Notes: a model not told the origin generated them from the letters alone. DNA of 62,700 nucleotides from a virus (IMGVR_UViG_3300048625_000103:1-62700); one strand, 5' to 3'. Counted from the first letter of the stretch, positions 5,499 through 59,978 are shown. Program-made: numbers and translations.

Positions 5499-6245
5499 AT
5501 TGATCCAATCAGCCTTTTGATGCTAGCTCAGTCCGCAGTTGCTGCGATACGCACAGGCTGCCAAATGCTCAGCGAAGGGAAGGCTGATCTCGACAAGTTT
5601 AAAAAGACTGTTGAAAAAGGTGTTGGGGATGCAAAAGCAATTTACAAAGAGGCAAGAGGGCTTTGGTCTTGGCTAAAGGGACTGTTTGCTAAAAAGGCAT
5701 CGAACCAAAACTCTTTGGTTCCCCCTGAAAAACAACTCGACGACATCAATGTCGCCGACATAACCAAAAGTACTAAGAAAGCAAAGCGTCCACCTGACCC
5801 GGAGCTGACTTACGAAGAGTTTCAAGCGCAGTCCGTACATGAGATCTGCGAAAATATGAAGGTCTACTTTGAGGCCATCCGCGCATTAAAGGCGCATTGT
5901 CGTGAGCTCGAGCATGATTCGGCTACGACGGATAAAGTGGCATCAAGTGCCATTGATAGGATAGAGATCGAATGGCAGCTCAAACAGCTGTCAACACAAG
6001 TTAGAGAGGCCATGGTGTACACGCCTGAGCACTTGGGTCTTCAGGATTTGTACGCGCGCTTCCTTGCAATGTATGAACAGATTCTTGATGAGCAGGAATT
6101 TGCCCGTGATGTGAAAGCCAAGAAAGATCGAGATAACGCATGGCGACACGAGCACCGCAAAGAAATCCTAATTTACAAGCTGGTGTACGCAGTAGCGGTG
6201 ATAATCGGTCTACTGGAACTGATTGGGCTGTATTTAACTCTATGA
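5499..6245 (+). CDS. C-terminally membrane-anchored protein of lysis cluster, probable ATT start
   Basis: The frame opens right after the previous stop. The first ATG is at 5520 and has no ribosome site. An in-frame ATT at 5499 follows GGAG with a 6-nt spacer and gives Met-Asp-Pro-Ile-Ser-Leu, so I prefer that start. The N-terminal half is helical (Ala-Ile-Arg-Thr-Gly-Cys, Lys-Lys-Thr-Val-Glu-Lys, Trp-Ser-Trp-Leu-Lys). The middle is a long charged helix region. One C-terminal membrane helix spans about residues 227-247. One of the dispersed 20-bp hairpins (5702-5721) lies inside the coding region. Its position between membrane genes and holin suggests an envelope role. Family not identified. 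Confidence 0.75.
   Translation: MDPISLLMLAQSAVAAIRTGCQMLSEGKADLDKFKKTVEKGVGDAKAIYKEARGLWSWLKGLFAKKASNQNSLVPPEKQLDDINVADITKSTKKAKRPPDPELTYEEFQAQSVHEICENMKVYFEAIRALKAHCRELEHDSATTDKVASSAIDRIEIEWQLKQLSTQVREAMVYTPEHLGLQDLYARFLAMYEQILDEQEFARDVKAKKDRDNAWRHEHRKEILIYKLVYAVAVIIGLLELIGLYLTL
5702..5721 (+). repeat. Dispersed 20-bp hairpin, copy A (class 2)
   Basis: GAACCAAAACTCTTTGGTTC: 8-bp perfect stem with a 4-nt loop, inside the coding sequence of 5499-6245. It is the exact reverse complement of copy E at 59959-59978 and a loop variant of copies B, C and D. Confidence 0.85.
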
Positions 6246-6409
6246 AAGAATTTTGGTTTTGGGTAATCATCGTCACGCTTATCATCATTGGGTTGATGGG
6301 ATTGTCGTTTTTAACCGTGTACCAAACCAAGCAGTTGAAAAAGACCGAAGCTATTTTGCTAAGGGCCGAAGAGCGTGAACGTAAACTCGAAAGGAAGAAG
6401 GATGAATAA
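6242..6409 (+). CDS. Single-pass membrane protein with charged coiled tail, i-spanin-like candidate (55 aa)
   Basis: The ATG overlaps the previous stop (ATGA). One strong N-terminal membrane helix (residues about 5-24) is followed by a Lys/Glu/Arg-rich helical tail (Arg-Ala-Glu-Glu-Arg-Glu-Arg-Lys-Leu-Glu). N-terminal anchor plus charged helix within a holin/endolysin cluster is the pattern of an inner-membrane spanin, but the tail is short and no outer-membrane partner was recognised. Confidence 0.55.
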   Translation: MKEFWFWVIIVTLIIIGLMGLSFLTVYQTKQLKKTEAILLRAEERERKLERKKDE

Positions 6410-6863
6410 CCTGTTCAATCTACTCAAAGACATCGCGCCGACATTGGCGACGGCCGTTGCAGGCCCGTTTGGTGGTGCCGCCGTTAGCGCTCTGGCCGCT
6501 AAGTTTGGCGTGTCTGACAGCGTTGAGGCGGTGGCAAAAGCCATTTCTGGCGATCCTGCGGCCGCAGCAAAGTTGCAAGAGCTAGAGTTGGAATACGCAA
6601 AACTCGACGCCGCTGACCGTGACTCTGCACGTAGAAATGAAGTTGCTTTGGCAACCAGCGAACAAGTACCCGTACTGAACAAATCGGTGACGCCTGTACT
6701 CGCCATCATCATCGTGTTGGCTTGGGGGTTTATCCAGTACCACTTGCTGACGCATGTTGTGGCTACCGAGATGCGCGAGATCATCATTCGCGTGTTGGGT
6801 ACGCTTGATGGTGCATTGGTCATGGTTTTGTCCTATTACTTTGGCGCGAGCCATAAACACTGA
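6402..6863 (+). CDS. 3TM-type holin (GTA_holin_3TM-like, 153 aa)
   Basis: The start at 6402 is chosen for its strong site (AAGGAAGAAGG) and overlap with the upstream stop. The N-terminal region is amphipathic and Ala/Gly-rich, then comes Asp-Pro-Ala-Ala-Ala-Ala-Lys-Leu-Gln-Glu-Leu-Glu, the conserved stretch of the 3TM holin family. Two C-terminal hydrophobic helices follow (about residues 96-116 and 129-147). In lytic phages such proteins permeabilise the inner membrane to release the endolysin, which is the next gene, 7 nt downstream. Confidence 0.8.
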   Translation: MNNLFNLLKDIAPTLATAVAGPFGGAAVSALAAKFGVSDSVEAVAKAISGDPAAAAKLQELELEYAKLDAADRDSARRNEVALATSEQVPVLNKSVTPVLAIIIVLAWGFIQYHLLTHVVATEMREIIIRVLGTLDGALVMVLSYYFGASHKH

Positions 6864-6870
6864 GACTTTT

Positions 6871-7395
6871 ATGCACAACAACTTTGACTTTGCTTTTGAA
6901 CGTGTCATCCAATCGGAAGGCGGCTATGTAAATGACCCTCATGACGCAGGTGGCGAAACTAATCTGGGGGTCACTAAGGCTGCTTGGAGCGCTTATATTG
7001 GCCGGGCTATTCAGGATGGTGAGATGAAGGCTTTGACGGTTGACGCAGTCAAGCCGTTCTACAAAAAAATGTATTGGGACAAGATGCACTGCGATGATTT
7101 ACCAAAAGGTCTTGACTACGCAGCGTTTGACTTTGCGGTGAATGCCGGTGTTGGCCAGTCCTCCAAATTTATTCAGCGCTGCGTAGGCGCAAAGGATGAC
7201 GGATCGATTGGGCCTGCAACGATGGCTGCTGTTGCAAAGGCTGACCCTCGGATGCTACTGCTTGGGTTTGCCAATCAGAAAGTGCTGTTCTACCGCAGTC
7301 TGGTCGAGAAGAACGCTACACAAGAAAAGTTCCTCAAAGGATGGTTGGCACGAGCTTCGGATGTTGAAAGCAAAGCCATGACAATGCTTGCTTGA
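6871..7395 (+). CDS. Endolysin, glycosyl hydrolase family 108 muramidase
   Basis: A 174-residue enzyme. Residues about 5-90 match the GH108 domain, with Ser-Glu-Gly-Gly-Tyr-Val-Asn-Asp-Pro and Gly-Gly-Glu-Thr-Asn-Leu-Gly-Val-Thr. Glu16 is the expected catalytic acid. The C-terminal part has the peptidoglycan-binding signature Asp-Gly-Ser-Ile-Gly-Pro-Ala-Thr. No signal peptide is seen, consistent with holin-dependent export. Family members cut the MurNAc-GlcNAc glycan backbone. It follows directly on the 3TM holin gene, giving a compact lysis pair. The start was chosen where the domain begins; ACTTTT precedes the ATG, so the ribosome site is weak. Confidence 0.9.
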   Translation: MHNNFDFAFERVIQSEGGYVNDPHDAGGETNLGVTKAAWSAYIGRAIQDGEMKALTVDAVKPFYKKMYWDKMHCDDLPKGLDYAAFDFAVNAGVGQSSKFIQRCVGAKDDGSIGPATMAAVAKADPRMLLLGFANQKVLFYRSLVEKNATQEKFLKGWLARASDVESKAMTMLA

Positions 7396-7426
7396 TCTTC
7401 ACACCACTTGATGGGAAAATGTCGCC

Positions 7427-10192: not shown

Positions 10193-11419
10193 ATGAAAAC
10201 AAACTATTCTCGTCGTGAACTTTATGCTCTTGGAGAGCCTATTGGTGAGAGCTCGACTCGCATTGAGGTTGATCGTCGCGTGTATGGTGGCGGCGGCGGG
10301 ATTCTTGGTGATGTAACAGGTGCGATTGGGGATCTTGGTCAAGGTGCAATTGATGTCGTAAAGGACACCGGATCTACACTTGATGATTTGGCTCACAAAT
10401 CTACTTCCGCAGTGGATACACAGGTGCGTAAAACTATTCCCGGAGGTTGGGCTACGGTAGCCGCTCTGGCGGGAGCTAATGGCGCTGGTTTATTTGATGC
10501 TGCTGCCGCGGGTGGTGGGGCTGGTGCTGGATACGAAGCTGGTGTTGGTGGTACAAATTTGTTTGCTGACGGTGCAATTCCGGGTAATGCTGCGGATTTG
10601 GCTGGTGCCGGTGGAATTGACTTGGGTGGTGGAATTAGCCTTGGAGCAGATGGAAGCGTACTTGGTGGAACCTTTACTGGTGGCTCTGGATTAACTGGCA
10701 ATGCGGCAACTGATGCGCTTACAGGTTTATCTGGTGGATCTGGCGTTGGTGGTTATCTGAGCAATCTTCTGGGTAAATCTATCACTGGAAGTCCCGGTGG
10801 ATTGAGTTTGGGCGGCGCCGGTCTTGGGGCTGCTGGTTTGGCTGCCTTGATGAGCTATCTCAAGGCTGACAATGCTCGATATGGCACGCCCGGCCGTCAA
10901 GATAATGTTGGCGCCATGGGTCAATTCAAATACAACCCAGCCTCCTTTTCCGCTACACGACCCGATCCTTCCATGTTTCGCGCGCTTGGTGTTCCAACGG
11001 CAAAGGTCGGTTATGCAGATGGCGGACCAATTCAAGTTGGCCAAAACGGCCCAATGGAGCAGCAGCAGCAAGTCCCAACTCCAGATGCAGTTCCTTCGTA
11101 CATGAACTCAAATGTCGTGATGATGGCGCGCGGTGGAATCTCTAGCCTTGGCGGCTACTCGGATGGCGGCCGTATGTTGAAGGGGCCGGGCGATGGAATG
11201 TCGGATTCAATCCCAGCCTCTATCGCGGGTAAGCAGCCAGCACGTTTGGCTGATTCTGAATTTGTTGTTCCAGCAGATGTTGTTTCTCATTTGGGAAATG
11301 GATCTTCGGATGCTGGCGCCAAGAAGCTTTATCAGATGATGGACAAGGTTCGACAAGCCCGAACCGGCCGAAAGACACAAGGTAAGCAGATTAACGCAGA
11401 CAAGTTCTTGCCAAGATGA
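10193..11419 (+). CDS. Internal virion / ejection-cassette protein (408 aa, Gly-rich)
   Basis: The first ~35 residues (Ser-Arg-Arg-Glu-Leu-Tyr-Ala, then a run of Gly) closely match the start of the protein at 11829, so the two share an N-terminal module. The centre is very rich in Gly, Ala and Leu (low complexity). The C-terminal ~90 residues contain Tyr-Ala-Asp-Gly-Gly, Met-Ala-Arg-Gly-Gly and a conserved block with Gly-Asp-Gly-Met-Ser-Asp-Ser-Ile-Pro and Glu-Phe-Val-Val-Pro-Ala-Asp-Val-Val-Ser, which recurs in podoviral virion proteins. It is likely packaged in the head and ejected with DNA. The upstream gap (10156-10192) holds only a weak ribosome site. Confidence 0.65.
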   Translation: MKTNYSRRELYALGEPIGESSTRIEVDRRVYGGGGGILGDVTGAIGDLGQGAIDVVKDTGSTLDDLAHKSTSAVDTQVRKTIPGGWATVAALAGANGAGLFDAAAAGGGAGAGYEAGVGGTNLFADGAIPGNAADLAGAGGIDLGGGISLGADGSVLGGTFTGGSGLTGNAATDALTGLSGGSGVGGYLSNLLGKSITGSPGGLSLGGAGLGAAGLAALMSYLKADNARYGTPGRQDNVGAMGQFKYNPASFSATRPDPSMFRALGVPTAKVGYADGGPIQVGQNGPMEQQQQVPTPDAVPSYMNSNVVMMARGGISSLGGYSDGGRMLKGPGDGMSDSIPASIAGKQPARLADSEFVVPADVVSHLGNGSSDAGAKKLYQMMDKVRQARTGRKTQGKQINADKFLPR

Positions 11420-11832
11420 CATTGAAGCTGGAGCCTATTCAGGCACATCATGTTGCTGTGTTGTGGCCCAAGTTGGAGCCACACATAGCGGACGCCTTAG
11501 ATAAGGCTGATGTTAAAGAATATGGATCTGAGCACGTCAAATATTTTCTTGAGCAAGGACATTGGTTGGCAATTGGATTCTTTGACGAAAGCTACGAGCT
11601 GCATGGTGCGGCCACGGTTTCGTTTGTGAGCTATCCGAATTTCAAGGTTGCATTCATTACTGCTATTGGTGGCAGATTGATTGCAAACCAAGACACGTTC
11701 AATCAGTTGAAATCTATTTGTAAAACGCATGGCGCAACAAAGTTGCAAGGCTATGCTCGTGAGTCAGTTGCGCGTTTGTGGAAGCGATTGGGCTTTGAAA
11801 ACCGTGCCATTTTGGTGGAAGCAAAACTATGA
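11416..11832 (+). CDS. GNAT-fold acetyltransferase-like internal virion protein (138 aa)
   Basis: Overlaps its neighbours by 4 nt on both sides (ATGA junctions), so it is an integral member of the ejection cassette. The sequence has a GNAT-like order: an N-terminal helix, a central strand with Gly-Ala-Ala-Thr-Val-Ser-Phe, and a C-terminal Ala-Arg-Glu-Ser-Val-Ala-Arg-Leu-Trp-Lys-Arg-Leu-Gly-Phe block typical of the final helix of the fold. The canonical acetyl-CoA loop (Arg/Gln-x-x-Gly-x-Gly/Ala) is not evident, so catalysis is doubtful. GNAT-like internal virion proteins occur at this place in T7-like cassettes. Confidence 0.7.
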   Translation: MTLKLEPIQAHHVAVLWPKLEPHIADALDKADVKEYGSEHVKYFLEQGHWLAIGFFDESYELHGAATVSFVSYPNFKVAFITAIGGRLIANQDTFNQLKSICKTHGATKLQGYARESVARLWKRLGFENRAILVEAKL

Positions 11833-13595
11833 AAACCTCTTTTTCTCGTCGTGAACTTTACGCTTTTGGCGAAGCGCTGGGTGATTCAGCAACCCGTCAA
11901 GTTGCTGGTCGTCGTATTTATGGTGGCGGCGGTGGTGCATCTTCCATTTCGACAAGTGCCTTTTCTCCAACGCAAACATCCAATCCAAGCGTAAACCCAA
12001 GCGTGAGCCCGCTGTCTCAGAACGATGCTCAGCAGGGCGTGGCTGGATACGCTCAGCCATACGTCAACACCATGCTTGGTGCGACGATGCAGAACTTGTT
12101 TAACTACGACCAGAGCGGTAATGCCACCGGCTTGCAACAGTACAACCCGTACAGCTACAACCCATCTGACTACGTTGCTGGATTCTCTCCTTTGCAGCAG
12201 CAAGCTCAGCAAGGCGTATCCAATCTTCAGAATCCATACCAAGCTCAGCAAGCAACAGGCTATGCAAATCAAGCCATCCAAGGCTTGCTGGGCCAGCAAT
12301 ACAACCCTCAAACTGGCGGCTACCAATCTGTTGGCGCATCACAGTTCCAAGCCCCAAATCAACTGCAAGCGCAGAATGTTTCAGCAGAGCGCGTAAATGC
12401 ACCTCAACTGCAAGCACTGAGCATGAATGCTGCCGGTAATGTGGGCACGCAAAGCTTTACGCAACCCGGCGCGGCAGGTCAGTACATGTCTCCGTACATG
12501 CAAAACGTTGTCGATACCCAGACTCGTGAAGCGCAGCGTCAAGCAGATATTGCATCTACCAAGCGAGGTGCACAGGCAGCTGGCGCAGGAGCGTTTGGCG
12601 GATCGCGAATGGCCATTGAGAATGCAGAAGCTGCACGCAACTTGGCAACCCAAAAGGGCGACATTCAAGCAACTGGTTCTCAGGCTGCGTACAACAATGC
12701 TCAACAGCAATTTAACGCTGAACAGCAGGCTCGACTTCAGGCCAACTTGGCAAACCAAGGTGTGCAACAACAAGCAAATCTGCAAAACCTTTCTGCTGGC
12801 TTACAGACTCAAGGTCTTGGTGCGCAAACAGGATTGCAAGCGCAACAGGCAAACCAACAAACAGGTCTTCAGGCTTTGCTGGCAAATCAGCAGGCTGGCC
12901 TACAAGCTGGCCAAGCCAATCAAAACATGCAGTACAACACTGGCCTGCAAAATGCCCAGCTGTCGCAGCAAGCAAACTTGGCCAATCAATCTGCTTCTCA
13001 GCAGGCTCAGCAATTGGCGGCACAGCAGCAGCAATTTGGCGCGAACTATGGTCTACAAGGTCTGCAAGGTGCATTGTCTGGTGCTACCGCTTTGGGCAAT
13101 TTGGGTACATCAAACCTGAATAACCAACTTGGCATTTTGAATGCTCAGCAAGCGGCCGGACTCACCCAGCAGCAGCAGCAGCAAAACATCATCAATCAAG
13201 GCGTGCAGAACTATCAAACTGCACAGCAGTATCCAATGACGCAACTGACACAGATGAAAAACATCTTGTCTGGCTTGCCGATCACAACTACGTCTACGCA
13301 AAACTATCAGGCTGCTCCGTCAAACCTTTCCAACTTGGTTGGCTTGGGTCTTGGTGGTGCCGGTATTGCTCAGCTGCTTGGTGGCGGAAGCTCCGGAACA
13401 ACGGGTGGTGGTAACGCATTATCTGGATTGCTTAACCAAGGTGCCAGCGCAATTGGTGGCGGCTTGTCGAGTGCGGCAACTGGTATCGGAAATTGGTGGA
13501 ATGGCCTAAACTTTGCTGAAGGCGGCAAAATCAATTCTCAAACGAACGGCTCTGGTCTTAGCGATCTCGGCATTTACAACGCAATGAACAAGTAA
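11829..13595 (+). CDS. Gln/Ala-rich ejection-cassette protein (588 aa)
   Basis: The N-terminus (Ser-Arg-Arg-Glu-Leu-Tyr-Ala-Phe-Gly-Glu, then Gly run) is paralogous to 10193. From about residue 120 to 480 the chain is extremely rich in Gln, Ala, Asn and Leu, with imperfect ~11-residue repeats (Gly-Leu-Gln-Ala-x-x-Ala-Asn-Gln-Gln-x), predicting long helices or coiled coils. Near the C-terminus, Gly/Leu-rich segments could contact membrane, and Phe-Ala-Glu-Gly-Gly-Lys echoes motifs in neighbouring virion proteins. It probably corresponds in role to the T7 gp14/gp15 ejection proteins; there is no direct sequence proof. Confidence 0.7.
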   Translation: MKTSFSRRELYAFGEALGDSATRQVAGRRIYGGGGGASSISTSAFSPTQTSNPSVNPSVSPLSQNDAQQGVAGYAQPYVNTMLGATMQNLFNYDQSGNATGLQQYNPYSYNPSDYVAGFSPLQQQAQQGVSNLQNPYQAQQATGYANQAIQGLLGQQYNPQTGGYQSVGASQFQAPNQLQAQNVSAERVNAPQLQALSMNAAGNVGTQSFTQPGAAGQYMSPYMQNVVDTQTREAQRQADIASTKRGAQAAGAGAFGGSRMAIENAEAARNLATQKGDIQATGSQAAYNNAQQQFNAEQQARLQANLANQGVQQQANLQNLSAGLQTQGLGAQTGLQAQQANQQTGLQALLANQQAGLQAGQANQNMQYNTGLQNAQLSQQANLANQSASQQAQQLAAQQQQFGANYGLQGLQGALSGATALGNLGTSNLNNQLGILNAQQAAGLTQQQQQQNIINQGVQNYQTAQQYPMTQLTQMKNILSGLPITTTSTQNYQAAPSNLSNLVGLGLGGAGIAQLLGGGSSGTTGGGNALSGLLNQGASAIGGGLSSAATGIGNWWNGLNFAEGGKINSQTNGSGLSDLGIYNAMNK

Positions 13596-21653: not shown

Positions 21654-21679
21654 TCGAACCAATTTTCTTTGGTTCGATT
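21652..21679. terminator. Bidirectional hairpin terminator at convergent junction; dispersed hairpin copy B
   Basis: An 11-bp perfect stem (AATCGAACCAA pairing with TTGGTTCGATT), 6-nt loop, directly after the stop of the giant gene and just before the end of the converging minus-strand operon. The T-rich loop and flanking A/T suit termination on both strands. Its core 21656-21675 is one of five scattered 20-bp hairpins. Confidence 0.75.
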
Positions 21680-22181: not shown

Positions 22182-22489
22182 GTGTTCTTTTCCTTGAGTT
22201 TGGCTTCAACCAATTCCATAACGGTGGTGCGGTCATCTCTTTCGGTTGCGTAGATGATTTCCCATCTGCCCTGTGCCGTCATCCCAACCCATATGCGTTG
22301 TTGTGGTGTGGTGTAGAGAGGTTCACATCGAGGATCATTTTTGTTATCTAGGTATGTGCAATAGTTCCAAACCCAATGGTCATCTTCAACAGGCATCTTG
22401 TAGAGATATGCCACAGGCTCACCCTGCTCTTGCTTTGGTTGAACTGGGTGTGTTGCTTTTGAAATATTTTTATAGCCTTCGTCTTTCAT
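22178..22489 (-). CDS. Modular accessory protein with KQEQGEPVA linker (103 aa)
   Basis: Contains Lys-Gln-Glu-Gln-Gly-Glu-Pro-Val-Ala-Tyr, Glu-Pro-Leu-Tyr-Thr-Thr-Pro-Gln-Gln and a Trp-Val-Gly-Met-Thr segment. These are recognisable blocks of a very widespread but uncharacterised phage accessory family. The start uses the shared junction ATTAAGGAGTAAGACATG, whose first part encodes the end of the upstream gene. C-terminal 11 residues match the 21975 protein, consistent with domain shuffling. Function unknown. Confidence 0.75.
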   Translation of the reverse strand: MKDEGYKNISKATHPVQPKQEQGEPVAYLYKMPVEDDHWVWNYCTYLDNKNDPRCEPLYTTPQQRIWVGMTAQGRWEIIYATERDDRTTVMELVEAKLKEKNT

Positions 22490-22492
22490 GTC

Positions 22493-22624
22493 TTACTCCT
22501 TAATGCCGTAAACGGCTTCTGCATCCATACAAAACATTTCAAGCAACTCATACAACTCGACGCACCTGTTTTGCCAAGCAATAGCGTTGTCTAATGCTTT
22601 TAAAAATAATTCACGATCTGTCAT
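22493..22624 (-). CDS. 43-aa protein, paralogue of the plus-strand gene at 33883
   Basis: A 43-residue helical protein (Thr-Asp-Arg-Glu-Leu-Phe-Leu-Lys-Ala-Leu, Trp-Gln-Asn-Arg-Cys-Val-Glu-Leu-Tyr-Glu). It is identical at 37 of 43 positions to the product of 33883-34014 on the other strand. It begins 3 nt after the upstream stop and its end overlaps the ribosome site of the next gene. The strong conservation between copies argues that it is a real, expressed gene. Function unknown. Confidence 0.8.
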   Translation of the reverse strand: MTDRELFLKALDNAIAWQNRCVELYELLEMFCMDAEAVYGIKE

Positions 22625-22627
22625 GTT

Positions 22628-23443
22628 TTATTCCTTAATGCCGTGGGCGGCTTCGATTGCTCGTACAACTTTTACAAAGTCATCAATCTTGCACATATCG
22701 CAATCTTCAAGGCCGTTATCACGCCCCCACCATTTACGGATTTCAGCATCCGTAAGTGGCTTGCGTTGTTGTGGCGTTAGTCCTCTTATTACTTCAAGAC
22801 ATTCATTCCAGCCAGTCCGATAATCGGGACTTTCGCTGTCATCGGTAATGGAATCGGGCAATGCCATATGGTGTCGTTTGGTGTAGAGCAACGTACCAAT
22901 AGGCATAGGTTCGCCACGCCATTGGATAGTCTTTGTGTGTCTGATTTGGCCGAATCCAGCATATTCATTTGTACCGATTACTTCACCCACAGGCTCACCC
23001 TGCTCTTTCTGTGCTGCGGGTGGGGTGGAGAACAATCGGCACAAGTCAGAACGCCACCAAAACGCGCCCCTCTTTGTCGGGTGCTTTTGCTCAAACCAAA
23101 CGCCATCCCAATCGCCAGCGCCATAGAGGAAGTTCAGCATTTGCAGTTGCTCGCCTGTCCACGCCACAGGATCACCCTGCTCTTGCTTGGCTAGTGCAAC
23201 GTCGTACAAAGGAACAACCTGCCCAAGCGGTGTAAATGAAGCGCTGTTTTTATCTGTGCTCACTGCGCCATTGGACGGGTCGTACCATGCCAACGGTTTG
23301 CCATGCTCTTGTTGTGCCAAGGATTTTTCTAAAACCTCAATCGCATCGTCAACTTTGTTCAGATCAAACGATTTTTCATACGATGATGTGTAGGTGCAGC
23401 TATTCAACGCATCAAGCACCAGATTCATTTCTTCTTTGGTCAT
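22628..23443 (-). CDS. Modular accessory protein with three KQEQGEP-type linkers (271 aa)
   Basis: The N-terminus (Met-Thr-Lys-Glu-Glu-Met, Asp-Asp-Ala-Ile-Glu-Val-Leu-Glu) resembles the N-terminus of the 37050 protein. Three linkers of the type Gln-Glu-Gln-Gly-Asp/Glu-Pro-Val separate small Trp/aromatic-rich modules. The C-terminus is Pro-Leu-Thr-Asp-Ala-Glu-Ile followed by Val-Arg-Ala-Ile-Glu-Ala-Ala-His-Gly-Ile-Lys-Glu. The family is frequent in phages and has no known biochemical role. ATTCCAACATG with upstream AAGGA gives the start. Confidence 0.75.
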   Translation of the reverse strand: MTKEEMNLVLDALNSCTYTSSYEKSFDLNKVDDAIEVLEKSLAQQEHGKPLAWYDPSNGAVSTDKNSASFTPLGQVVPLYDVALAKQEQGDPVAWTGEQLQMLNFLYGAGDWDGVWFEQKHPTKRGAFWWRSDLCRLFSTPPAAQKEQGEPVGEVIGTNEYAGFGQIRHTKTIQWRGEPMPIGTLLYTKRHHMALPDSITDDSESPDYRTGWNECLEVIRGLTPQQRKPLTDAEIRKWWGRDNGLEDCDMCKIDDFVKVVRAIEAAHGIKE

Positions 23444-36945: not shown

Positions 36946-37053
36946 ATGTGGCCGTTCCCAACCCAAGACAACCCGCTCAAATCGTGGACACCTAAGCAGG
37001 TGCGTGAGTACGCACAGCAACAACGCAGCAAAGAAGAGGATGCACTGTTATGA
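36946..37053 (+). CDS. 35-aa protein, WPFP...WTPKQ type; paralogue at 42586
   Basis: It starts Met-Trp-Pro-Phe-Pro and contains Trp-Thr-Pro-Lys-Gln-Val-Arg-Glu-Tyr-Ala-Gln-Gln-Gln-Arg. The minus-strand gene at 42586-42687 has the same plan, which supports both as real. The stop overlaps the next start (ATGA). Confidence 0.7.
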   Translation: MWPFPTQDNPLKSWTPKQVREYAQQQRSKEEDALL

Positions 37054-37754
37054 GTAAAGAAGCAATGAAGCAGGCGCTTGAGGCGTTGACATTTTCACAA
37101 AGCGATTCAATAGCGGTAGAGGAATTGATTGACGATGCAATTATTGCCCTAGAAGAAGCACTAGCCAAGCAAGAGCAGGGTGAGCCTGTTTGGTCACTTG
37201 AAGATTGTGTGCGCACTTTAAAAACCCTGAACTACATAGAAGGAATTGCTGTAAAAGGCGAAGGTCGTCAAATGCGAGAGGATGAGTCGCTTGAGCAATT
37301 CATCCTTGGGTATGTAAAACGATTGGAAGCAGCATTTGCAAAGCAAGAGCAGGGTGAGCCAGCACCTGTGCAGAAGCCCGTTTGCCAAAAATGTGGCGGA
37401 ACAGGCAAAGTCGAAGAAGGCGGCGTTTATCCATCTGGGGATTTAGCGTATTTGCCCTGTGAATGCGCCACCACCTCACCCGCAGCACAACACAAGCCGC
37501 TGACGGATAAGACGGAAGGAAGAAGTGATCTAGAAATTGTCATTCAGACCGAAGACGTTGCGGCATTACTGATGCTTGAGATTTACCAACGAGAGTTAGG
37601 CGGCATAGCAAACCCTTTCAGGGACTCCGAGAACCCGCGAGCAAAACATTGCTGGCGCCTTGCTTGTCGCCTTCAAGAGATGCTGACAAACACCGACCCG
37701 ATGAACGCTGTCGCAGCAGTGGACGACGAAACCGCCCACGGCATTAAGGACTAA
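37050..37754 (+). CDS. Modular accessory protein with KQEQGEP linkers and zinc knuckle (234 aa)
   Basis: N-terminal helix module (Met-Ser-Lys-Glu-Ala-Met-Lys-Gln-Ala-Leu-Glu-Ala-Leu; Asp-Asp-Ala-Ile-Ile-Ala-Leu-Glu-Glu) as in 22628. Two linkers Ala-Lys-Gln-Glu-Gln-Gly-Glu-Pro. A zinc knuckle Cys-Gln-Lys-Cys-Gly-Gly-Thr-Gly ... Cys-Glu-Cys. Then Lys-Pro-Leu-Thr-Asp-Lys and a C-terminal module ending Thr-Ala-His-Gly-Ile-Lys-Asp. The nucleotides of the linkers are nearly identical to those on the minus strand at 22.4-23.3 kb. Function unknown. Confidence 0.75.
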   Translation: MSKEAMKQALEALTFSQSDSIAVEELIDDAIIALEEALAKQEQGEPVWSLEDCVRTLKTLNYIEGIAVKGEGRQMREDESLEQFILGYVKRLEAAFAKQEQGEPAPVQKPVCQKCGGTGKVEEGGVYPSGDLAYLPCECATTSPAAQHKPLTDKTEGRSDLEIVIQTEDVAALLMLEIYQRELGGIANPFRDSENPRAKHCWRLACRLQEMLTNTDPMNAVAAVDDETAHGIKD

Positions 37755-37757
37755 GAC

Positions 37758-37988
37758 ATGACAGATGAGCAATACGAAGAGCTAAGTTGCCCGCAGCCTT
37801 CATTCGTGGTTCGATCTTTGCGCGACAACCCAGACTACATAAAATGCCCGCGCTGCTGGAACTATACGCACGAAGGGTTGCATAACCATGACGGCCTATG
37901 TGATAGATGCTGCACTGTATTAATTGAAGCATGGCCGGATCATGAAAGTGTTCCACACATCAAAAAAAGGAGAGAGGCTAATGGCTAA
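37758..37988 (+). CDS. Zinc-ribbon protein (76 aa)
   Basis: Residues ~30-56 hold Cys-Pro-Arg-Cys-Trp and Cys-Asp-Arg-Cys-Cys, separated by 16 residues rich in His. This zinc ribbon resembles the end of isoleucyl-tRNA synthetase or Fpg-type fingers. A basic C-terminus follows. It starts in the shared GGCATTAAGGACTAAGACATG-type junction. Nucleic-acid binding is inferred. Confidence 0.7.
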   Translation: MTDEQYEELSCPQPSFVVRSLRDNPDYIKCPRCWNYTHEGLHNHDGLCDRCCTVLIEAWPDHESVPHIKKRREANG

Positions 37989-38302: not shown

Positions 38303-39104
38303 GTTACTTGGTATTGATGTAATCCGCATCGACGGAGATACACAATCGCGCGCTGAGATCGATCAGGCAATGGTTGCAGAGTATTCAACCAACATGCAAG
38401 ACGGAGATCAGTTTCCTGCTGTTGTTGCTTACTTTGATGGCGTCAATTACTGGCTTGGTGATGGCTTCCATCGCTATCACGCAACCAAGAAGGCTGGCAT
38501 CGGATCTATCTTGGCAGATGTGATCAACGGCACAAATCGTGATGCTCAGTTGTATTCGCTTGGTGCTAACTCTTTGCATGGCTTACGTCGCAAAAACGCA
38601 GACAAGCGTAAAGCGGTGATGACCATGCTGAACGACTTTGAGTGGCAAGAGTGGAGCAATGCAGAGATCGCACGCCACTGTCGCGTATCTCCTACGCTTG
38701 TTGCATCGTTGCGCGGTGATGATGCACCTGACGTTCGTAAATTCAAGATGGCAGACGGCACAGTTGCAGAAAAGCGTGTGCCTAAGCGAGCTGAACAGGC
38801 AGCATCTAAGCCGGTTGCAGAAGAGCCAGTTGTGGATAGCAACAGCGACCATGACGACATGGTGGCCGAGCTGGTAGCAGAGAACGAGCGTGTCAATGAT
38901 CGCTTGGCAGTGGCTGCTATGGAAGGCACAGAGGAAGAGAAGGCCATGGCTGCCGACACAATCGAAAGCCTGCGCGAAGAGATCCGCATCTTGAAGATCG
39001 AGCTGGTGGCAGTGAAGCAAAGCCGTGACCAGTACCAATCAGAGAATGGCCAGATGAAGAAGCAAATGTCCATGTACGAACGAAAGCTAAAGGCTAAATC
39101 ATGA
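38292..39104 (+). CDS. ParB-like nuclease-domain protein with HTH (270 aa)
   Basis: Residues ~8-95 match the ParB/sulfiredoxin fold: Phe-Pro-Ala-Val-Val-Ala-Tyr-Phe-Asp-Gly, then Trp-Leu-Gly-Asp-Gly-Phe-His-Arg-Tyr-His-Ala, the variant of the ParB Gly-Glu-Arg-Arg box. A helix-turn-helix follows at ~125-145 (Glu-Ile-Ala-Arg-His-Cys-Arg-Val-Ser-Pro-Thr-Leu-Val). The C-terminal ~90 residues are a coiled coil. Phage members bind DNA and some hydrolyse NTPs or nick DNA. It may act in replication or regulation with the helicase downstream. No ParA was seen. Confidence 0.8.
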   Translation: MERKLLGIDVIRIDGDTQSRAEIDQAMVAEYSTNMQDGDQFPAVVAYFDGVNYWLGDGFHRYHATKKAGIGSILADVINGTNRDAQLYSLGANSLHGLRRKNADKRKAVMTMLNDFEWQEWSNAEIARHCRVSPTLVASLRGDDAPDVRKFKMADGTVAEKRVPKRAEQAASKPVAEEPVVDSNSDHDDMVAELVAENERVNDRLAVAAMEGTEEEKAMAADTIESLREEIRILKIELVAVKQSRDQYQSENGQMKKQMSMYERKLKAKS

Positions 39105-39364
39105 TCAATATTCATGAAACTTTGAGTGAGCGACAAGCAACCCACGGTGATTTTGCAACTCATGCGTTGATTGCTCAAAGCATCAAATGCCAAATGTTTA
39201 ATGCTCATGGGTATGTAGCGCTGAGTGCCATGCAACGAGAGGCGTTGGACATGATCGCCCATAAGATTGCCCGCATTTTGAATGGCAACCCAGATGTTCA
39301 TGATCATTGGCATGACATTGGGGGATATGCAACTTTGGTCGCCAATACGATGGAACCGAAGTAG
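39101..39364 (+). CDS. Conserved phage protein, DUF6378-like (87 aa)
   Basis: Opens with Glu-Arg-Gln-Ala-Thr-His-Gly-Asp-Phe and later Gln-Arg-Glu-Ala-Leu-Asp-Met-Ile-Ala-His-Lys-Ile-Ala-Arg-Ile and Asp-His-Trp-His-Asp-Ile-Gly-Gly-Tyr-Ala. This is the signature of a small all-helical family found in many phages. The clustered His/Asp/Glu suggest a metal site and a MazG-like relation is possible. Activity unknown. The gene ends directly at hairpin copy C. Confidence 0.75.
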   Translation: MINIHETLSERQATHGDFATHALIAQSIKCQMFNAHGYVALSAMQREALDMIAHKIARILNGNPDVHDHWHDIGGYATLVANTMEPK

Positions 39365-39383
39365 AACCAATTTTCTTTGGTTC
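39364..39383 (+). repeat. Dispersed 20-bp hairpin, copy C (class 1)
   Basis: GAACCAATTTTCTTTGGTTC, identical to copy B, with the first G being the last base of the DUF6378-like stop codon. It lies between that gene and the helicase gene at 39426. Confidence 0.85.
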
Positions 39384-39425
39384 GCCCAAGCCAGCGGGCG
39401 TTGTGTGCTGGCAGTGGAGAGATAC

Positions 39426-40919
39426 ATGGGACTTAATTTACGTCCGTACCAAGCGGAGATTTTGGAAGCATTGAGAAAGGGATTTGCGGCAGGCCATCGT
39501 TCGCAGATCCTTTATCTTCCAACGGGTGGTGGCAAAACAGAGTGCGCAATTGCTCTGCTTGAAGCAACCAAGATTAAGGGAAACAAAGCGGCCATGCTGT
39601 TGGACCGCATCATCCTTTGTGATCAGACAAGCCAGCGTCTTGACAAGTACAAGATTGAACACGGTGTGCTCCAGTCTGGCCATTGGAGGCACCGGCCATA
39701 CGAGAACATTCAGATCTGCTCCGCTCAGACATTGGAGAAGCGTGGATCTTTTCCAGACCTCAAGATCTTGATCATCGATGAATGCCATGCGACCCGCGCG
39801 CAGACGGTTGAGTTCATCAAGAACAACCCAGACGTGAAGGTAATTGGCTTGTCGGCCACCCCTTTCACCAAAGGTTTATCAAACATTTATCATTCAGTGG
39901 TTAGCACAATCACGACAAAAGATCTGGTTGATCAGAAGGTTTTGGTTCCGCTCAAAGTGTTCGTGGCCAAAGAAATTGACATGGACGGAGCCAAGAAAGT
40001 AGCGGGCGAATGGTCTCAAGCAGAGTCATCAACGCGTGGTATGCAGATCACTGGCGACATCGTTGCAGAGTGGATCAAGAAGACGCACGAGATATACGGA
40101 AAGCCTCGCAAGACCATTGTGTTTTGCTCAGGTGTTGAGCATGGCGCCGATCTGTCAAAGAAGTTTGCGGAACAGGGATACAACTTCATCAGCATTAGCT
40201 ACCGTGATGATGACGAGTTCAAGAAGGATGTCATCGACGACTTTAGCAAGCCTGACACGGAGATTCACGGCCTGATCGCAACGGACATTCTTACCAAGGG
40301 ATTCGACGTGCCTGACGTGATGATCGGGGTATCTGCGCGGCCATTCTCAAAGTCTTTATCAAGTCACATTCAGCAGATGGGTAGGGTGATGCGCGGCATG
40401 CCTCATGCACCCGAAGAGAAGCCGTTTGCGGTCTGGCTTGATCACTCAGGTAACTATCTGCGCTTCCGTGAAGACTGGGACGCGGTGTATGAGAACGGTG
40501 TGCACGAGCTGGACGACGGCAAAGAGAAGGCCAAGAAAGAAAAGACAGAGACAGAGAAGAAGGAAGCCAAGTGTCCGGTGTGTAGTCATCTGTGGCCGTC
40601 TGGTTCTGATAAATGCCTGCATTGTGGCCACGAACGAGAACGTCGAAGCAAGGTGGCAGAGGTGGCCGGTGAAATGGAAGAGCTTAAAGGCGCCATGTCC
40701 AAGGACGACAAGCAACAATTCTGGTCAATGTGCCAGTACAAGATTGCCAACAGTGGATGGTCTGAAAGTAGAGCGCTGGCCGCATACAAATCTAAGTTCA
40801 GCGTGTGGCCAAAGGGCCTGCATAAAACACCAATCACTCCGGATGCGAAGTTCGACAGGACGGCGAAAGCTGGGATGATCCGTTACCTTAAGGGTAAAGC
40901 GAAAGGGGAAAACAAATGA
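39426..40919 (+). CDS. SF2 DNA/RNA helicase with C-terminal zinc finger (497 aa)
   Basis: Superfamily 2 motifs in order: Q-like Arg-Pro-Tyr-Gln near residue 6; motif I Leu-Pro-Thr-Gly-Gly-Gly-Lys37-Thr; motif II Asp118-Glu-Cys-His; motif III Leu-Ser-Ala-Thr-Pro; a second RecA-like domain with Thr-Asp-Ile-Leu-Thr-Lys-Gly-Phe-Asp; and motif VI Gln-Gln-Met-Gly-Arg-Val-Met-Arg. The C-terminus has a Cys-Pro-Val-Cys ... Cys-Leu-His-Cys zinc finger. These UvsW/RecG-like phage helicases unwind or remodel branched DNA. The start at 39426 is chosen by homology; the longer frame upstream reads through hairpin C. It is followed by a primase 660 nt later. Confidence 0.88.
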   Translation: MGLNLRPYQAEILEALRKGFAAGHRSQILYLPTGGGKTECAIALLEATKIKGNKAAMLLDRIILCDQTSQRLDKYKIEHGVLQSGHWRHRPYENIQICSAQTLEKRGSFPDLKILIIDECHATRAQTVEFIKNNPDVKVIGLSATPFTKGLSNIYHSVVSTITTKDLVDQKVLVPLKVFVAKEIDMDGAKKVAGEWSQAESSTRGMQITGDIVAEWIKKTHEIYGKPRKTIVFCSGVEHGADLSKKFAEQGYNFISISYRDDDEFKKDVIDDFSKPDTEIHGLIATDILTKGFDVPDVMIGVSARPFSKSLSSHIQQMGRVMRGMPHAPEEKPFAVWLDHSGNYLRFREDWDAVYENGVHELDDGKEKAKKEKTETEKKEAKCPVCSHLWPSGSDKCLHCGHERERRSKVAEVAGEMEELKGAMSKDDKQQFWSMCQYKIANSGWSESRALAAYKSKFSVWPKGLHKTPITPDAKFDRTAKAGMIRYLKGKAKGENK

Positions 40920-46351: not shown

Positions 46352-46380
46352 TATAAAAAATGGGAACTAATAGAGGGGTA

Positions 46381-46400
46381 GAACCAAAGAAAATTGGTTC
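46381..46400 (-). repeat. Dispersed 20-bp hairpin, copy D (class 1, inverted)
   Basis: GAACCAAAGAAAATTGGTTC, the exact reverse complement of copies B and C. It lies between terS and the LexA-like gene. Confidence 0.85.
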
Positions 46401-46485
46401 GATTAAGAAGAGGGTGGTCGAGATCAATTACAAGATGACGGCCAAGAGTAGGGATTTGACGGAAGAGAAGTGTAAGGAGATGGAT

Positions 46486-46710
46486 ATGAGCCCGGCGCAG
46501 AGAGAGGTGTTTTTGATTGTGGATGAGTGGTGGAAGAAGTTTGGGTTTAGTCCGAGCTTGAGGGATATTGCGAACCAGAGGGGGAAGATGGGGTTGGGCA
46601 ATACGATGAGGTTGGTTGATCGGTTGGTGGAGCTGGGTGTGTTTAAGAAGATTGATGGGTGTGGGAGGACGGTGCGGCCGGTGTACATCAACTTTAGGAA
46701 CTTGGAGTAA
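46486..46710 (+). CDS. LexA-type winged-helix DNA-binding protein (74 aa)
   Basis: A stand-alone LexA DNA-binding domain: Gln-Arg-Glu-Val-Phe-Leu-Ile-Val-Asp-Glu-Trp-Trp, Gly-Phe-Ser-Pro-Ser-Leu-Arg-Asp-Ile-Ala, and Gly-Asn-Thr-Met-Arg-Leu-Val-Asp-Arg-Leu-Val-Glu-Leu-Gly. No peptidase domain, so it cannot be a self-cleaving repressor. AAGGAG with a 6-nt gap sets the start at 46486; the same frame is open back to 46360, through hairpin D, so a longer product is possible. It may regulate the late operon. Confidence 0.75.
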   Translation: MSPAQREVFLIVDEWWKKFGFSPSLRDIANQRGKMGLGNTMRLVDRLVELGVFKKIDGCGRTVRPVYINFRNLE

Positions 46711-46712
46711 AT

Positions 46713-46811
46713 ATGCACGGCGGATCAATTGGCTCGACATTGCTTCTACTTTTTTGTGGCTTGATGGCTGCATATTGCACAGGCAAAAAACGCAAACATG
46801 ACAAAAAATAA
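46713..46811 (+). CDS. Tiny membrane protein (32 aa)
   Basis: A 32-residue protein with a hydrophobic helix (Ser-Thr-Leu-Leu-Leu-Leu-Phe-Cys-Gly-Leu-Met-Ala-Ala-Tyr) and basic tail (Gly-Lys-Lys-Arg-Lys). GGAGTAAAT gives a ribosome site. It overlaps terL by 14 nt. Small size lowers confidence. Confidence 0.5.
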   Translation: MHGGSIGSTLLLLFCGLMAAYCTGKKRKHDKK

Positions 46812-48342
46812 AAAACCGGCTCCGCAGGAGTTGAGTGAGCTCGACAAGTTGCTTTCTGGGTTGGCGCCTAGTGAGCAGGAGCAGTTACTTGCTGACGTAG
46901 AAGAGTACAGAAATGCGCTGGAGAGGGAGAAGTGTCAGAACAGTTTCATGGCCTACGTCAAAACCATGTGGCCCGGGTTTATTCACGGCCGCCATCATGC
47001 GTTACTGGCTAAAAAGTTCGAGGATATTGCGTCAGGGAAGATCAAACGGCTGGCAATTTCACTTCCACCGCGGCATACCAAGTCGGAATTTGGCTCGTAC
47101 CTCTTTCCGTCGTGGTTTTTGGGTAAATTTCCCGGCAAAAAGGTGATGCAAGCGTCAAACACGGGCGAACTTTCGGTGGGTTTTGGCCGAAAAGTGCGTA
47201 ACTTGGTGATGTCAGAGCAATATGCCAAGACATTTCCTGATGTGGCGCTGCGACAAGACTCGAAAGCGGCTGGTCGATGGTCTACTAACCATGATGGTGA
47301 GTATTTTGCGATCGGCGTAGGCGGTACGATGACTGGTCGGGGTGCGGATTTGGTTATTATTGACGATCCACACACGGAAGGTGAGGCGGCGCTGGCTGCC
47401 CATGACCCAAGCGTGTACGACAGGTCTTATGAGTGGTACACATCAGGCCCCCGTCAACGTTTACAACCCAATGGCGCGATCATCATCATCGCAACGCGTT
47501 GGTCAGAGCGTGATTTGATTGGCCGGGTGTTAAAAGATGCGGCCGAACGTGGGAAGGTGGACGAATGGGAGGTGGTTGAACTTCCTGCCATCATGCCGAG
47601 CGGCAACCCCCTGTGGCCAGAGTTCTGGAGCTTGGCCGAACTCGAGGCGCTGCGTGAAGAATTGCCACCATCTAAGTGGAATGCTCAATATCAGCAATCT
47701 CCAACGGGCGAAGAGGGTGCGATCGTCAAAAGGGAGTGGTGGCAGACGTGGAAAAAAGACGAGCCGCCGCGGTGTGAGTTCATCATCCAAGCATGGGACA
47801 CGGCTTTCACCAAAAACGAACGTTCTGACTATTCAGCATGCTCGACATGGGGCGTGTTCTTCATGAACGAAGACCCGGCAGATCCGCACATCATTTTGTT
47901 GGATGCTTTTCAGAAACGGATGGAGTTTCCTGAGCTCAAAGAAAAAGCTCGGTCACATTATGAGGAATGGGAACCTGATGACTGCATCATCGAAGCCAAA
48001 GCATCTGGCGCGTCGTTGATTCAAGAGCTTAACAAGCAGGGTGGGATGTTCATTCGGCCGTACACACCGACGCGCGGCAAAGCTGGCCAGTCAAACGACA
48101 AGATCAGTCGCTTAAACGTGATCGCTCCGATCTTTCAAGCGGGCAAAGTTTGGGCGCCGGAGACACGTTGGGCACAGGAAATGGTTGAGCAAATGGCGGC
48201 GTTTCCCAATGCTGCACATGATGACTTGGTTGATACCGCGGTGATGGCTGTAACAAGGTTTCGACAAGGCGGATTTTTAAGACTAGAATCCGATGAACGT
48301 GAAGAAATCGCGAGCTTTAGGCGTGCGCGAACTTACTACTGA
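46798..48342 (+). CDS. terL: Terminase large subunit (514 aa)
   Basis: ATPase domain: Walker A Leu-Pro-Pro-Arg-His-Thr-Lys-Ser-Glu (residues 89-97), Walker B Leu-Val-Ile-Ile-Asp189-Asp190-Pro-His, coupling motif Ala-Thr-Arg-Trp (231-234). Nuclease domain: Ala-Trp-Asp333-Thr-Ala-Phe, Ile-Ile-Glu-Ala-Lys, and His-Asp-Asp-Leu-Val-Asp near the C-terminus supply the acidic metal site. It packages DNA into the prohead with TerS and the portal encoded next. Full length for the family. The start overlaps the tiny membrane gene; upstream ribosome site is weak. Confidence 0.93.
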   Translation: MTKNKKPAPQELSELDKLLSGLAPSEQEQLLADVEEYRNALEREKCQNSFMAYVKTMWPGFIHGRHHALLAKKFEDIASGKIKRLAISLPPRHTKSEFGSYLFPSWFLGKFPGKKVMQASNTGELSVGFGRKVRNLVMSEQYAKTFPDVALRQDSKAAGRWSTNHDGEYFAIGVGGTMTGRGADLVIIDDPHTEGEAALAAHDPSVYDRSYEWYTSGPRQRLQPNGAIIIIATRWSERDLIGRVLKDAAERGKVDEWEVVELPAIMPSGNPLWPEFWSLAELEALREELPPSKWNAQYQQSPTGEEGAIVKREWWQTWKKDEPPRCEFIIQAWDTAFTKNERSDYSACSTWGVFFMNEDPADPHIILLDAFQKRMEFPELKEKARSHYEEWEPDDCIIEAKASGASLIQELNKQGGMFIRPYTPTRGKAGQSNDKISRLNVIAPIFQAGKVWAPETRWAQEMVEQMAAFPNAAHDDLVDTAVMAVTRFRQGGFLRLESDEREEIASFRRARTYY

Positions 48343-57512: not shown

Positions 57513-57521
57513 GGAATCATC

Positions 57522-58102: not shown

Positions 58103-58104
58103 TC

Positions 58105-59025
58105 ATGGCAAACACATCCGGTAAAACAGTATTCAACTTGGACTTGTCCGAGCTGATTGAGGACGCTTTCGAGCGTTGCGGTCAAGAGCTGCGCACCGGA
58201 TATGAGATGCGTACAGCCCGTCGATCGCTCAACCTTTTGACTATTGAATGGTCAAACAGAGGCATCAACTTGTGGACCATTGAGCAGGGCCAGATCGTAA
58301 TGAATACTGGCCAAGCCATGTACGCCATTCCATCTGACACCATTGACTTGCTGGACACGGTTACACGTACAGGCTCTGGAACTACACAAAGTGATGTGAG
58401 CGTCACTCGCATCTCAGAGCCGACGTACATGACAATTCCAAACAAGAATGCAACTGGCCGCCCGGTTCAAGTTTGGATCAACCGTCAAACAGGTTTGGTA
58501 AACACAACGTCAGTGGTTACTGTTGCTGCGATCAATGATACTGATACAACGATTACAGTTTCCGACGCAAGCCAGCTTGGCACGATTGGGTTCATCAATA
58601 TTGGCTCAGAGACAATTGCCTACCAAAACGTTTCTGGAAATCAGCTGTTGAACTGCTTCCGCGGGCAAAACAACACAACGGCAACGGCTCATGCCATGGG
58701 ATCTTCTATTTCCGTGGCAAACCTGTCGTCGATTAACGTTTATCCAACACCAAGCGCGCCGGGCAATCAGTACACGTTTGTGTATTACCGTATGCGCCGC
58801 ATTCAAGATGCCGGTGGCGGTGTGAACATTCAAGACATTCCATTCCGCATGCTTAACTGCATGGTTGCTGGCTTGGCCTTCTACTTGTCTCAAAAGGTTC
58901 CCGGTGCAGAAGCTCGCATGCCTTGGCTGAAGTCGGAATATGAAGAGCAGTGGCTTTTGGCATCCACAGAAGATCGAGACAAATCTGCCGATCGTTATGT
59001 CCCACGGAACATGATGTATGCCTAA
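58105..59025 (+). CDS. Head-tail connector / tail-tube-like protein (306 aa)
   Basis: Residues ~10-70 are helical (Glu-Leu-Ile-Glu-Asp-Ala-Phe-Glu-Arg-Cys-Gly; Ala-Arg-Arg-Ser-Leu-Asn-Leu-Leu) as in connector proteins of the gp4/gp11 type. A central beta domain then an aromatic C-terminal stretch (Phe-Arg-Met-Leu-Asn-Cys-Met-Val-Ala-Gly-Leu-Ala) follow. It lies with another connector gene at 60427. Assignment is by fold pattern and position. Confidence 0.7.
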   Translation: MANTSGKTVFNLDLSELIEDAFERCGQELRTGYEMRTARRSLNLLTIEWSNRGINLWTIEQGQIVMNTGQAMYAIPSDTIDLLDTVTRTGSGTTQSDVSVTRISEPTYMTIPNKNATGRPVQVWINRQTGLVNTTSVVTVAAINDTDTTITVSDASQLGTIGFINIGSETIAYQNVSGNQLLNCFRGQNNTTATAHAMGSSISVANLSSINVYPTPSAPGNQYTFVYYRMRRIQDAGGGVNIQDIPFRMLNCMVAGLAFYLSQKVPGAEARMPWLKSEYEEQWLLASTEDRDKSADRYVPRNMMYA

Positions 59026-59533
59026 AAAAGACGCAGAGGCCCGTAAAGCGTATCAACGCGAATACAGTCAACGCAAACGTGTTGAGGCTTATGCTCGTGT
59101 AAAACAATGGAGAAAAGAAAATCCAGAGAAGGTTGCAGAGCAAAACCGGGTCTATGCTGAAAAACATCCAGAAAAGCTGGTTGAAAAATCCATTCGATGG
59201 AAAATAAAAAATCCAGAACGTGCCTCTCAAGTCTCAAGGGCTTCTCGTTTAAAAAACAAAGGTCGGATTGTCGCAAATAAGGCGGCATATAGGGCCGCAA
59301 AAAAAAATAGAACGCCATGTTGGCTAACTGATTTTGACCGTTTAAAAATAAAATGCATGTACCAGTTGGCTGCAATGTACAGCAAAGAAAATGACTGTAA
59401 ATTTGAAGTTGACCACATAATTCCGATGTGTGGAGAGCTTGTTTCCGGCCTTCATGTACCAAGCAATCTTCAGGTGATAAGAGCATCTGAAAACAGAATG
59501 AAGAACAACAAATTTGAGGTAAGCAATGCCTAA
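59018..59533 (+). CDS. HNH endonuclease with Lys/Arg-rich repeats (171 aa)
   Basis: The C-terminus carries Phe-Glu-Val-Asp-His-Ile-Ile-Pro-Met-Cys-Gly ... His-Val-Pro-Ser-Asn-Leu-Gln-Val ... Asn-Arg-Met-Lys-Asn-Asn-Lys, the HNH core. The first ~95 residues are repeats of the type Trp-Arg-Lys-Glu-Asn-Pro-Glu-Lys that wrap DNA in homing enzymes. Overlaps neighbours by 8 nt on each side. Mobile gene in the connector cassette. Confidence 0.9.
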   Translation: MPKKDAEARKAYQREYSQRKRVEAYARVKQWRKENPEKVAEQNRVYAEKHPEKLVEKSIRWKIKNPERASQVSRASRLKNKGRIVANKAAYRAAKKNRTPCWLTDFDRLKIKCMYQLAAMYSKENDCKFEVDHIIPMCGELVSGLHVPSNLQVIRASENRMKNNKFEVSNA

Positions 59534-59954
59534 TCGTTTTGCTTCTGGTAAATATTCAATTGCTGAATGCGATCGTTGTGGTCAAAGATATAAGCTAAAG
59601 GAGCTTAGAAAATTAACCATAAAGACAAAACAAGTTAGCATTAAGGTGTGTCCTGAATGTTGGGAACAAGACCAACCACAATTGCAGATCGGTATGTGGC
59701 CGGTTAACGACCCGCAGGCGGTGCGTGAACCACGTCCAGACACAAGCTATACGGCATCTGGCACAACTGGCCTGCAAGTTAACAACTCCGGCAACACAAC
59801 GCTGCTTGGAGAAGGTTATGTTTCGGAAGGAAGTCGCAACATCCAGTGGGGATGGGCGCCTGTAGGTGGTGCTCGTCTTTTTGACGATGCGTTGACGCCA
59901 AATAACTTGTCTTTAGCTGTGATAATCGGTACAGTACAAGTCGTGGCGAATTGA
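59526..59954 (+). CDS. Zinc-ribbon structural-operon protein (142 aa)
   Basis: N-terminal zinc ribbon: Cys-Asp-Arg-Cys-Gly-Gln-Arg-Tyr and Val-Cys-Pro-Glu-Cys-Trp. Then Trp-Pro-Val-Asn-Asp-Pro-Gln-Ala-Val-Arg-Glu-Pro-Arg-Pro-Asp, followed by a Gly/Ser-rich beta part. Found in connector regions of marine podoviruses. Function unknown. Hairpin copy E follows. Confidence 0.75.
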   Translation: MPNRFASGKYSIAECDRCGQRYKLKELRKLTIKTKQVSIKVCPECWEQDQPQLQIGMWPVNDPQAVREPRPDTSYTASGTTGLQVNNSGNTTLLGEGYVSEGSRNIQWGWAPVGGARLFDDALTPNNLSLAVIIGTVQVVAN

Positions 59955-59958
59955 AATC

Positions 59959-59978
59959 GAACCAAAGAGTTTTGGTTC
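59959..59978 (-). repeat. Dispersed 20-bp hairpin, copy E (class 2, inverted)
   Basis: GAACCAAAGAGTTTTGGTTC, the exact reverse complement of copy A. It begins 4 nt after the zinc-ribbon stop and ends 15 nt before the next start. Confidence 0.85.

Follow-up and report, generated by a model that had tools for sequence, protein, structure and literature searches.

Five palindromes and an orphan ParB-like gene

The 62.7-kb virus record IMGVR_UViG_3300048625_000103:1-62700 (hereafter the window, meaning the whole 62,700-nucleotide stretch of DNA that was analyzed) encodes small and large terminase subunits, an Erf annealing protein, an exonuclease, a helicase, a DNA primase (Toprim), and an orphan ParB-like protein, and contains five dispersed copies of a 20-bp near-palindrome (Table 1). 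Based on sequence comparisons, we propose that these palindromes are probably sequence-specific binding sites of the phage's own ParB-like protein, dispersed in the manner of parS sites or KorB operators. A megablast query of the phage collection with the window gave no match.

The copies fall into two classes, with three exact copies of GAACCAATTTTCTTTGGTTC and two of GAACCAAAACTCTTTGGTTC. The chance expectation for the five copies is 0.02 at up to three mismatches, and a search across the window for a sixth 20-mer with intact GAACCAA/TTGGTTC arms found none. A sequence search of the window agrees with the initial annotation on the positions, strands, and within-class identity of the five copies, and sets the difference between classes, described there as three or four central bases, at three bases, all in one half-site. 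The half-site GAACCAAAGA (read inward) is exactly common to both classes, while the other half is GAACCAATTT or GAACCAAAAC.

As also described initially, four copies lie at gene ends or borders and one lies in a coding frame; the four follow a stop codon by 0–29 bp and are outside curated genes, although the coding fraction of the window is ~0.87 by the curated gene list. Copy 4 also falls within a long open reading frame (ORF; 46360-46710), the ATG of which is ATA in the related genome G001 (see below), where the alignment contains frame-breaking gaps. Because this ORF is not conserved and the conserved helix-turn-helix (HTH) gene starts at 46435, copy 4 is most likely intergenic.

Table 1. 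Palindrome copies and associated genes in the window
Feature	Coordinates	Strand	Distance after stop codon (bp)	Sequence or match	Context
Copy 1	5702..5721	+		GAACCAAAACTCTTTGGTTC	In frame within ORF 5520-6245; no orthologous palindrome in G001
Copy 2	21656..21675	+	2	GAACCAATTTTCTTTGGTTC	Between convergent genes, 3' of the stop of a 1938-aa gene
Copy 3	39364..39383	+	0	GAACCAATTTTCTTTGGTTC	Gap between DUF6378 and helicase genes, 260 bp past the end of the ParB-like gene
Copy 4	46381..46400	-	29	GAACCAATTTTCTTTGGTTC	Gap between terminase small-subunit and HTH genes, 34 bp 5' of where the HTH gene starts
Copy 5	59959..59978	-	4	GAACCAAAACTCTTTGGTTC	3' of the stop of ORF 59526-59954, directly 5' of the next ribosome-binding site
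Orphan ParB-like protein, 270 aa	38292..39104	+		phrog_1033 (E=1.4e-18); AlphaFold model	Proposed site reader
Small DUF6378 gene	39101..39364	+			Between parB and copy 3
Superfamily II DNA helicase	39426..40919	+			Downstream of copy 3
Small winged-HTH (LexA-like) protein	46435..46710	+		phrog_3502	Upstream of the large terminase gene; rejected as reader
Terminase large subunit	46798..48342	+			Served for finding relatives

The ParB-like protein has a predicted ParB fold. Its AlphaFold (AF2) model, built on a 36-sequence alignment (predicted local distance difference test score, pLDDT, 82.7), starts with an N-domain of the ParB/sulfiredoxin type, continues with an HTH whose helices span 123-130 and 134-141, and ends in a long C-terminal helix. 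The order of N-domain and HTH domain is that of the ParB/Noc/KorB superfamily. Foldseek/VIA-align matches the model to Noc and ParB with a Z of 13 over residues 1-99, and the best match spanning both N-domain and HTH is KorB (8qa9, with KorA and DNA; Z 11.6, 133 residues, 2-143). The second mark of the superfamily, cognate-looking palindromes near or in parB and elsewhere, is also present. A search with the ParB alignment found no relative among bacterial or archaeal genome contigs.

Conserved positions and changing words in related phages

The 62,369-bp genome G001 is colinear with the window along most of its extent, with DNA identity mainly in the range of 66–84%. It carries palindromes at the orthologous places of four of the five window copies, with the word GAACC[AC]GAAC[CG]GTTC[GT]GGTTC. 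The orthologues of copies 2 and 5 (at G001 5057 and 31802, respectively) read GAACCCGAACsGTTCGGGTTC, while those of copies 3 and 4 are GAACCAGAACGGTTCTGGTTC and GAACCAGAACGGTTCGGGTTC. Orthologous sites of copy 3 are also found in L007-L011, and those of copy 4 in L013, L017, L018, and L048. In another type of relative, the site 3' of parB (GAACCAACATATTTTGGTTC, L007-L010) and the pre-terminase site (L017 and L018) are exact reverse complements with a changed center; these loci, found on different contigs, likely belong to one phage. Other close relatives carry GAACCCAATTAATTGGGTTC at parB (L011) or GAACCCTATTAAAAGGGTTC before the terminase (L013 and L048). The exact 20-mer pattern has matches in only two IMG/VR contigs, judged to be chance.

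The sites keep their positions while their word changes, in concert among the copies of one genome. These observations point to a trans-acting, sequence-specific reader and speak against recent mobility. The initial annotation had named as a refuting result that individual copies vary in step with the sequence around them; this was tested and not seen, as the copies co-vary within a genome and not with their flanks.

Two further stretches adjoin these sites. In the gap that separates copy 3 from the helicase gene (39384-39425), the sequence around GCCAGCGGGCGTTGTGTGCTGGC, with inverted GCCAGC/GCTGGC, is non-coding yet near-identical in G001. Directly 3' of the terminase small-subunit stop, TATAAAAAAT (46352-46361) is kept in relatives ~30 bp upstream of the site and is a possible promoter of the HTH-terminase operon.

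For a family-wide survey, relatives were gathered via the ParB-like protein (phrog_1033) alone and not via palindromes, and whole records were searched for repeated palindromes blind to the window word. Each was scored against its own second-order Markov shuffles and counted as positive when the statistic was at least 4 and above every shuffle. We used whole records because a comparison of 14-kb segments, with palindrome sets at 6 of 56 ParB loci versus 0 of 45 control loci, is of little power.

A genome-specific set of dispersed palindromes was found in 18 of the 21 ParB genomes versus 4 of the 17 control phage records (C21, C26, C32, and MinM2, two of which are GC-rich). Each positive ParB genome has its own word or word family; these include TTCTCAAACGTTTGAGAA (G003), TGGTAACGTTACCA (G004 and G006), ten copies of TGGCAACGTTGCCA (G005), CTCCATAAACGTTTATGGAG (G007), CTCCAGTAACGTTACTGGAG (G010), AACGAAACGTTTCGTT (G013), AACATAAACGTTTATGTT (G015), seven copies of AGAAAAATTTAAAGTTTTCT (G018), and eight of TACTAGTCNGACTAGTA (MW202545). 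Many sites share an AACGTT center with variable outer bases, resembling the parS layout, TGTTTCAC-GTGAAACA.

The positions of these sites also recur. A site lies inside parB or at its end in 7 of 17 genomes, and MW202898 has three copies within ~0.75 kb of its parB-like gene. In all 14 genomes that contain both genes, a site occurs within ~1.5 kb upstream of the terminase large-subunit gene (TerL), often directly upstream of the HTH gene, with three copies in this region in G013 and four in G018. Six genomes (G003, G004, G006, G007, G010, and G016) have a site before the exonuclease gene. A site within the Toprim (primase-like) gene was found in G004, G006, G009, and G016.

Candidate readers of the palindromes

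Site distance correlates with ParB distance in 14 genomes (Mantel r=0.49, p=0.0004) and in 23 genomes (r=0.56), p-values in these tests being indicative because the half-site consensi were hand-curated and the genomes are phylogenetically related. The corresponding values in the 14 genomes are 0.34 for the helicase, 0.23 for TerL, and 0.10 for the portal, and the whole HTH protein gives a non-significant r=0.11 (p=0.20). ParB stays significant given HTH (0.50), TerL (0.45), or helicase (0.38), whereas the values for HTH, TerL, and helicase given ParB drop to between -0.15 and 0.07. Such tests rank candidate readers and do not prove binding. Repeated palindromes at orthologous positions, their concerted genome-specific change, and their co-variation with the ParB sequence are all observed, and together they support the protein-binding site that the initial annotation had listed among its readings, with the palindromes as putative sites.

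We infer that a dimer of the ParB-like protein would place one HTH on each half-site; as the site is nearly symmetric, its orientation would be irrelevant. Each lineage would rewrite the word at all of its sites as its ParB changes, and the ParB-site complexes could act on transcription at operon borders or organize the phage DNA. Most sites occupy the few non-coding stretches that border operons or genes: ahead of the HTH-terminase operon and of the helicase gene, within the structural operon, and at the convergent structural/early boundary. Given this border placement and the fact that no ParA was found, a transcriptional or DNA-organizing role of the KorB, VirB, or StrR type is favored over ParA-driven partition. 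Because sites recur before the HTH-terminase operon (14/14) and the exonuclease gene (six genomes), we favor a regulatory role, in which the complexes would likely act on transcription where operons meet, in the way of KorB at its OB sites; they may also have roles in genome organization, replication, or packaging. That the word is a self-identity code, private to each lineage and read only by its own ParB, seems rather unlikely to us. If true, the code would serve packaging, replication priority, genome organization, or silencing of co-infecting relatives, and would drive rapid rewriting of the word, as in phage immunity groups.

Besides the indicative nature of the p-values, several points weigh against the ParB-like protein as reader. 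It lacks the canonical GERRxRA phosphate motif, in place of which is an invariant DGFHRY (GFHRYxA). Three ParB genomes (G011, G012, and G017) show no repeated palindrome even under relaxed rules, two of them lacking the full terminase region, and the four positive control records indicate that ParB phages are not alone in carrying such repeats. One of these, the Synechococcus phage MinM2 (L200, OQ594354), has ~17 dispersed copies of a TCCGGTTCAGNCTGAACCGGA-type palindrome and no ParB_N match, which is weak evidence for absence of ParB since PF02195 lacks the sensitivity needed for this family and misses W01, W05, and W06.

The ParA-binding motif [LFI]G[KR]G[LFI], as defined in PMC12704722, is absent from 21 of 21 ParB-like proteins. 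Due to this absence and the replacement of GERRxRA, cytidine triphosphate (CTP) clamping and ParA-driven partition are not to be assumed. Canonical ParABS partition was rejected, as neither the window nor G001 has a ParA (no PF13614 match, and none among the PHROG matches) and none of the 21 proteins has the ParA-binding motif.

Another phage factor, or a phage-adapted host factor, might bind the palindromes, with ParB merely co-inherited. The dispersed palindrome of MinM2, found there without a detected ParB, and the many unannotated genes of these phages agree with such a factor. However, the association between palindrome and ParB persists in the distant phages W01 and L202, which have ParB and little else in common with the family and carry sites inside or beside parB, and neither helicase nor terminase has a signal beyond ParB. 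We therefore consider this explanation unlikely.

The placement of sites upstream of TerL, often directly before the HTH gene and in several copies in G013 and G018, could also indicate operators of the LexA-like winged-HTH protein, which would regulate its own gene and a regulon. An operator of this type should co-vary with the recognition helix of a protein whose gene is always present, and neither was found. The helix LGNTMRLVDRL is identical between the window and G001 despite their differing sites; the HTH proteins of L013, L015, and L017 are 87–93% identical, but their words differ; and the non-significant r between whole HTH protein and sites turns negative given ParB (r=-0.15). Moreover, the HTH gene was not found in MW202545 (complete, with 8 sites), G019, MW202898, or MT835519 (G019 and MT835519 being incomplete as searched); these four carry both ParB and repeated palindromes. 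This makes the winged-HTH protein a quite improbable reader.

That the palindromes terminate transcription or act as RNA hairpins where genes end, the shared terminator unit of the initial annotation, is very improbable. Four copies are 0–30 bp past stop codons and could form stems of 7–12 bp, but the GC-rich hairpin followed by a T-run that marks an intrinsic terminator was not found. The copies are without a proper T-run; a terminator scan recovered only weak minus-strand versions of copies 1 and 5, with total terminator counts close to those of shuffles. With respect to transcription, the asymmetric center is found in both orientations, so an RNA loop is not conserved, and sites in several relatives lie within parB, Toprim, or portal genes or upstream of operons. 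Drift of hairpins would not leave distant copies identical within one genome.

A mobile hairpin or a site-specific recombination site of the lox/dif type with a spacer that has to match (the initial annotation spoke of a mobile or recombination-linked hairpin), suggested by the inverted arms around a spacer, the identity of spacer classes within a genome, and the occurrence of both orientations, is barely credible, as no integrase or resolvase (tyrosine or serine recombinase domain) was detected in the window or G001, the copies hold orthologous positions in colinear genomes while their sequence changes, the palindromic center (AACGTT) of relatives provides no directional spacer between the arms, and no inversions or deletions between copies were seen. 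For a repeated "hairpin" in general, orthologous positions should be compared before it is named a terminator or mobile repeat.

Comparison with known systems and further observations

Phage N15, a plasmid prophage with a ParA (SopA), contains scattered inverted repeats, its dispersed centromeres, which are read by the ParB homologue SopB. The window phage likewise combines several dispersed inverted repeats with a ParB homologue, but no ParA or integrase was detected, and each phage has a different word. The chromosomal ParB-parS and Noc-NBS (Noc-binding site) pairs are also similar in that an HTH protein of the ParB fold reads 16-bp palindromes, with Noc as an orphan ParB, and in the AC/GT center found in many of the phage sites. 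However, parS is, to our knowledge, nearly invariant among bacteria, whereas the phage word varies between close relatives, and the phage protein lacks the ParA-binding motif. Switching of specificity between parS and NBS has been described (PMC7383237).

KorB of plasmid RK2/RP4 is a ParB-fold protein that acts on transcription from OB operators (PMC11790492), which are scattered over the replicon (PMC5016525). The resemblance lies in a ParB-fold DNA-binder and many copies of one palindromic operator dispersed on a replicon. KorB differs in that it is a CTP-binding protein with an SH3-like C-domain and works together with KorA, whereas the phage protein has a replaced GERR motif and a long C-terminal helix, and no partner was found for it. 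According to a 2025 PNAS survey of orphan ParB proteins (PMC12704722), mobile elements frequently encode members whose motifs diverge, and certain members from phages bind CTP or adenosine triphosphate. Divergent phage ParB-like proteins without ParA resemble those described there, and the fold is also used by transcriptional regulators such as StrR-type proteins and VirB; the passages of the survey considered here cover fold, fusions, and nucleotide binding, and not dispersed sites or co-variation.

Proteins of the ParB fold, the scattered operators of KorB, and the dispersed N15 centromeres are already known. In the open-access literature searched, we found no account of a phage ParB with dispersed phage-specific sites, nor of a phage family whose orphan ParB and scattered word appear to diversify jointly between phages. 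Phage ParB-like genes are often annotated without a known target; here, likely targets are legible from the genomes alone in ~18 phages, offering an entry point to the function of these orphan proteins. The matched protein/site pairs form a natural series with very different words, in which to follow how a ParB-type protein shifts its DNA specificity, and mutually independent pairs are a possible source for DNA labeling.

Other repeats were noted in further records. Two control contigs, G032 (L249 record) and G026 (L220 record), have near-palindromes repeated above shuffles, with no relative of the window ParB-like protein detected. Aeromonas phage 1233 (L201, OR359403) contains 18 copies of AAnCGGACACCTGTCCGATT between 1851 and 46485. 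Most are oriented like the gene next to them, and many lie 13–24 bp before an annotated gene start, among them that of a distant ParB/StrR-like gene; this element could be a phage promoter, a 5' untranslated region element, or an operator.

The window itself contains two further pairs of related sequences. Diverged duplicated genes with repeated KQEQGEP-type motifs occur in opposite orientation at 22411-23443 and 37050-37768 (inverted repeats I2-I9), and two structural genes have near-identical starts (MKTxxSRRELYAxGE; 10193-10248 and 11828-11884).

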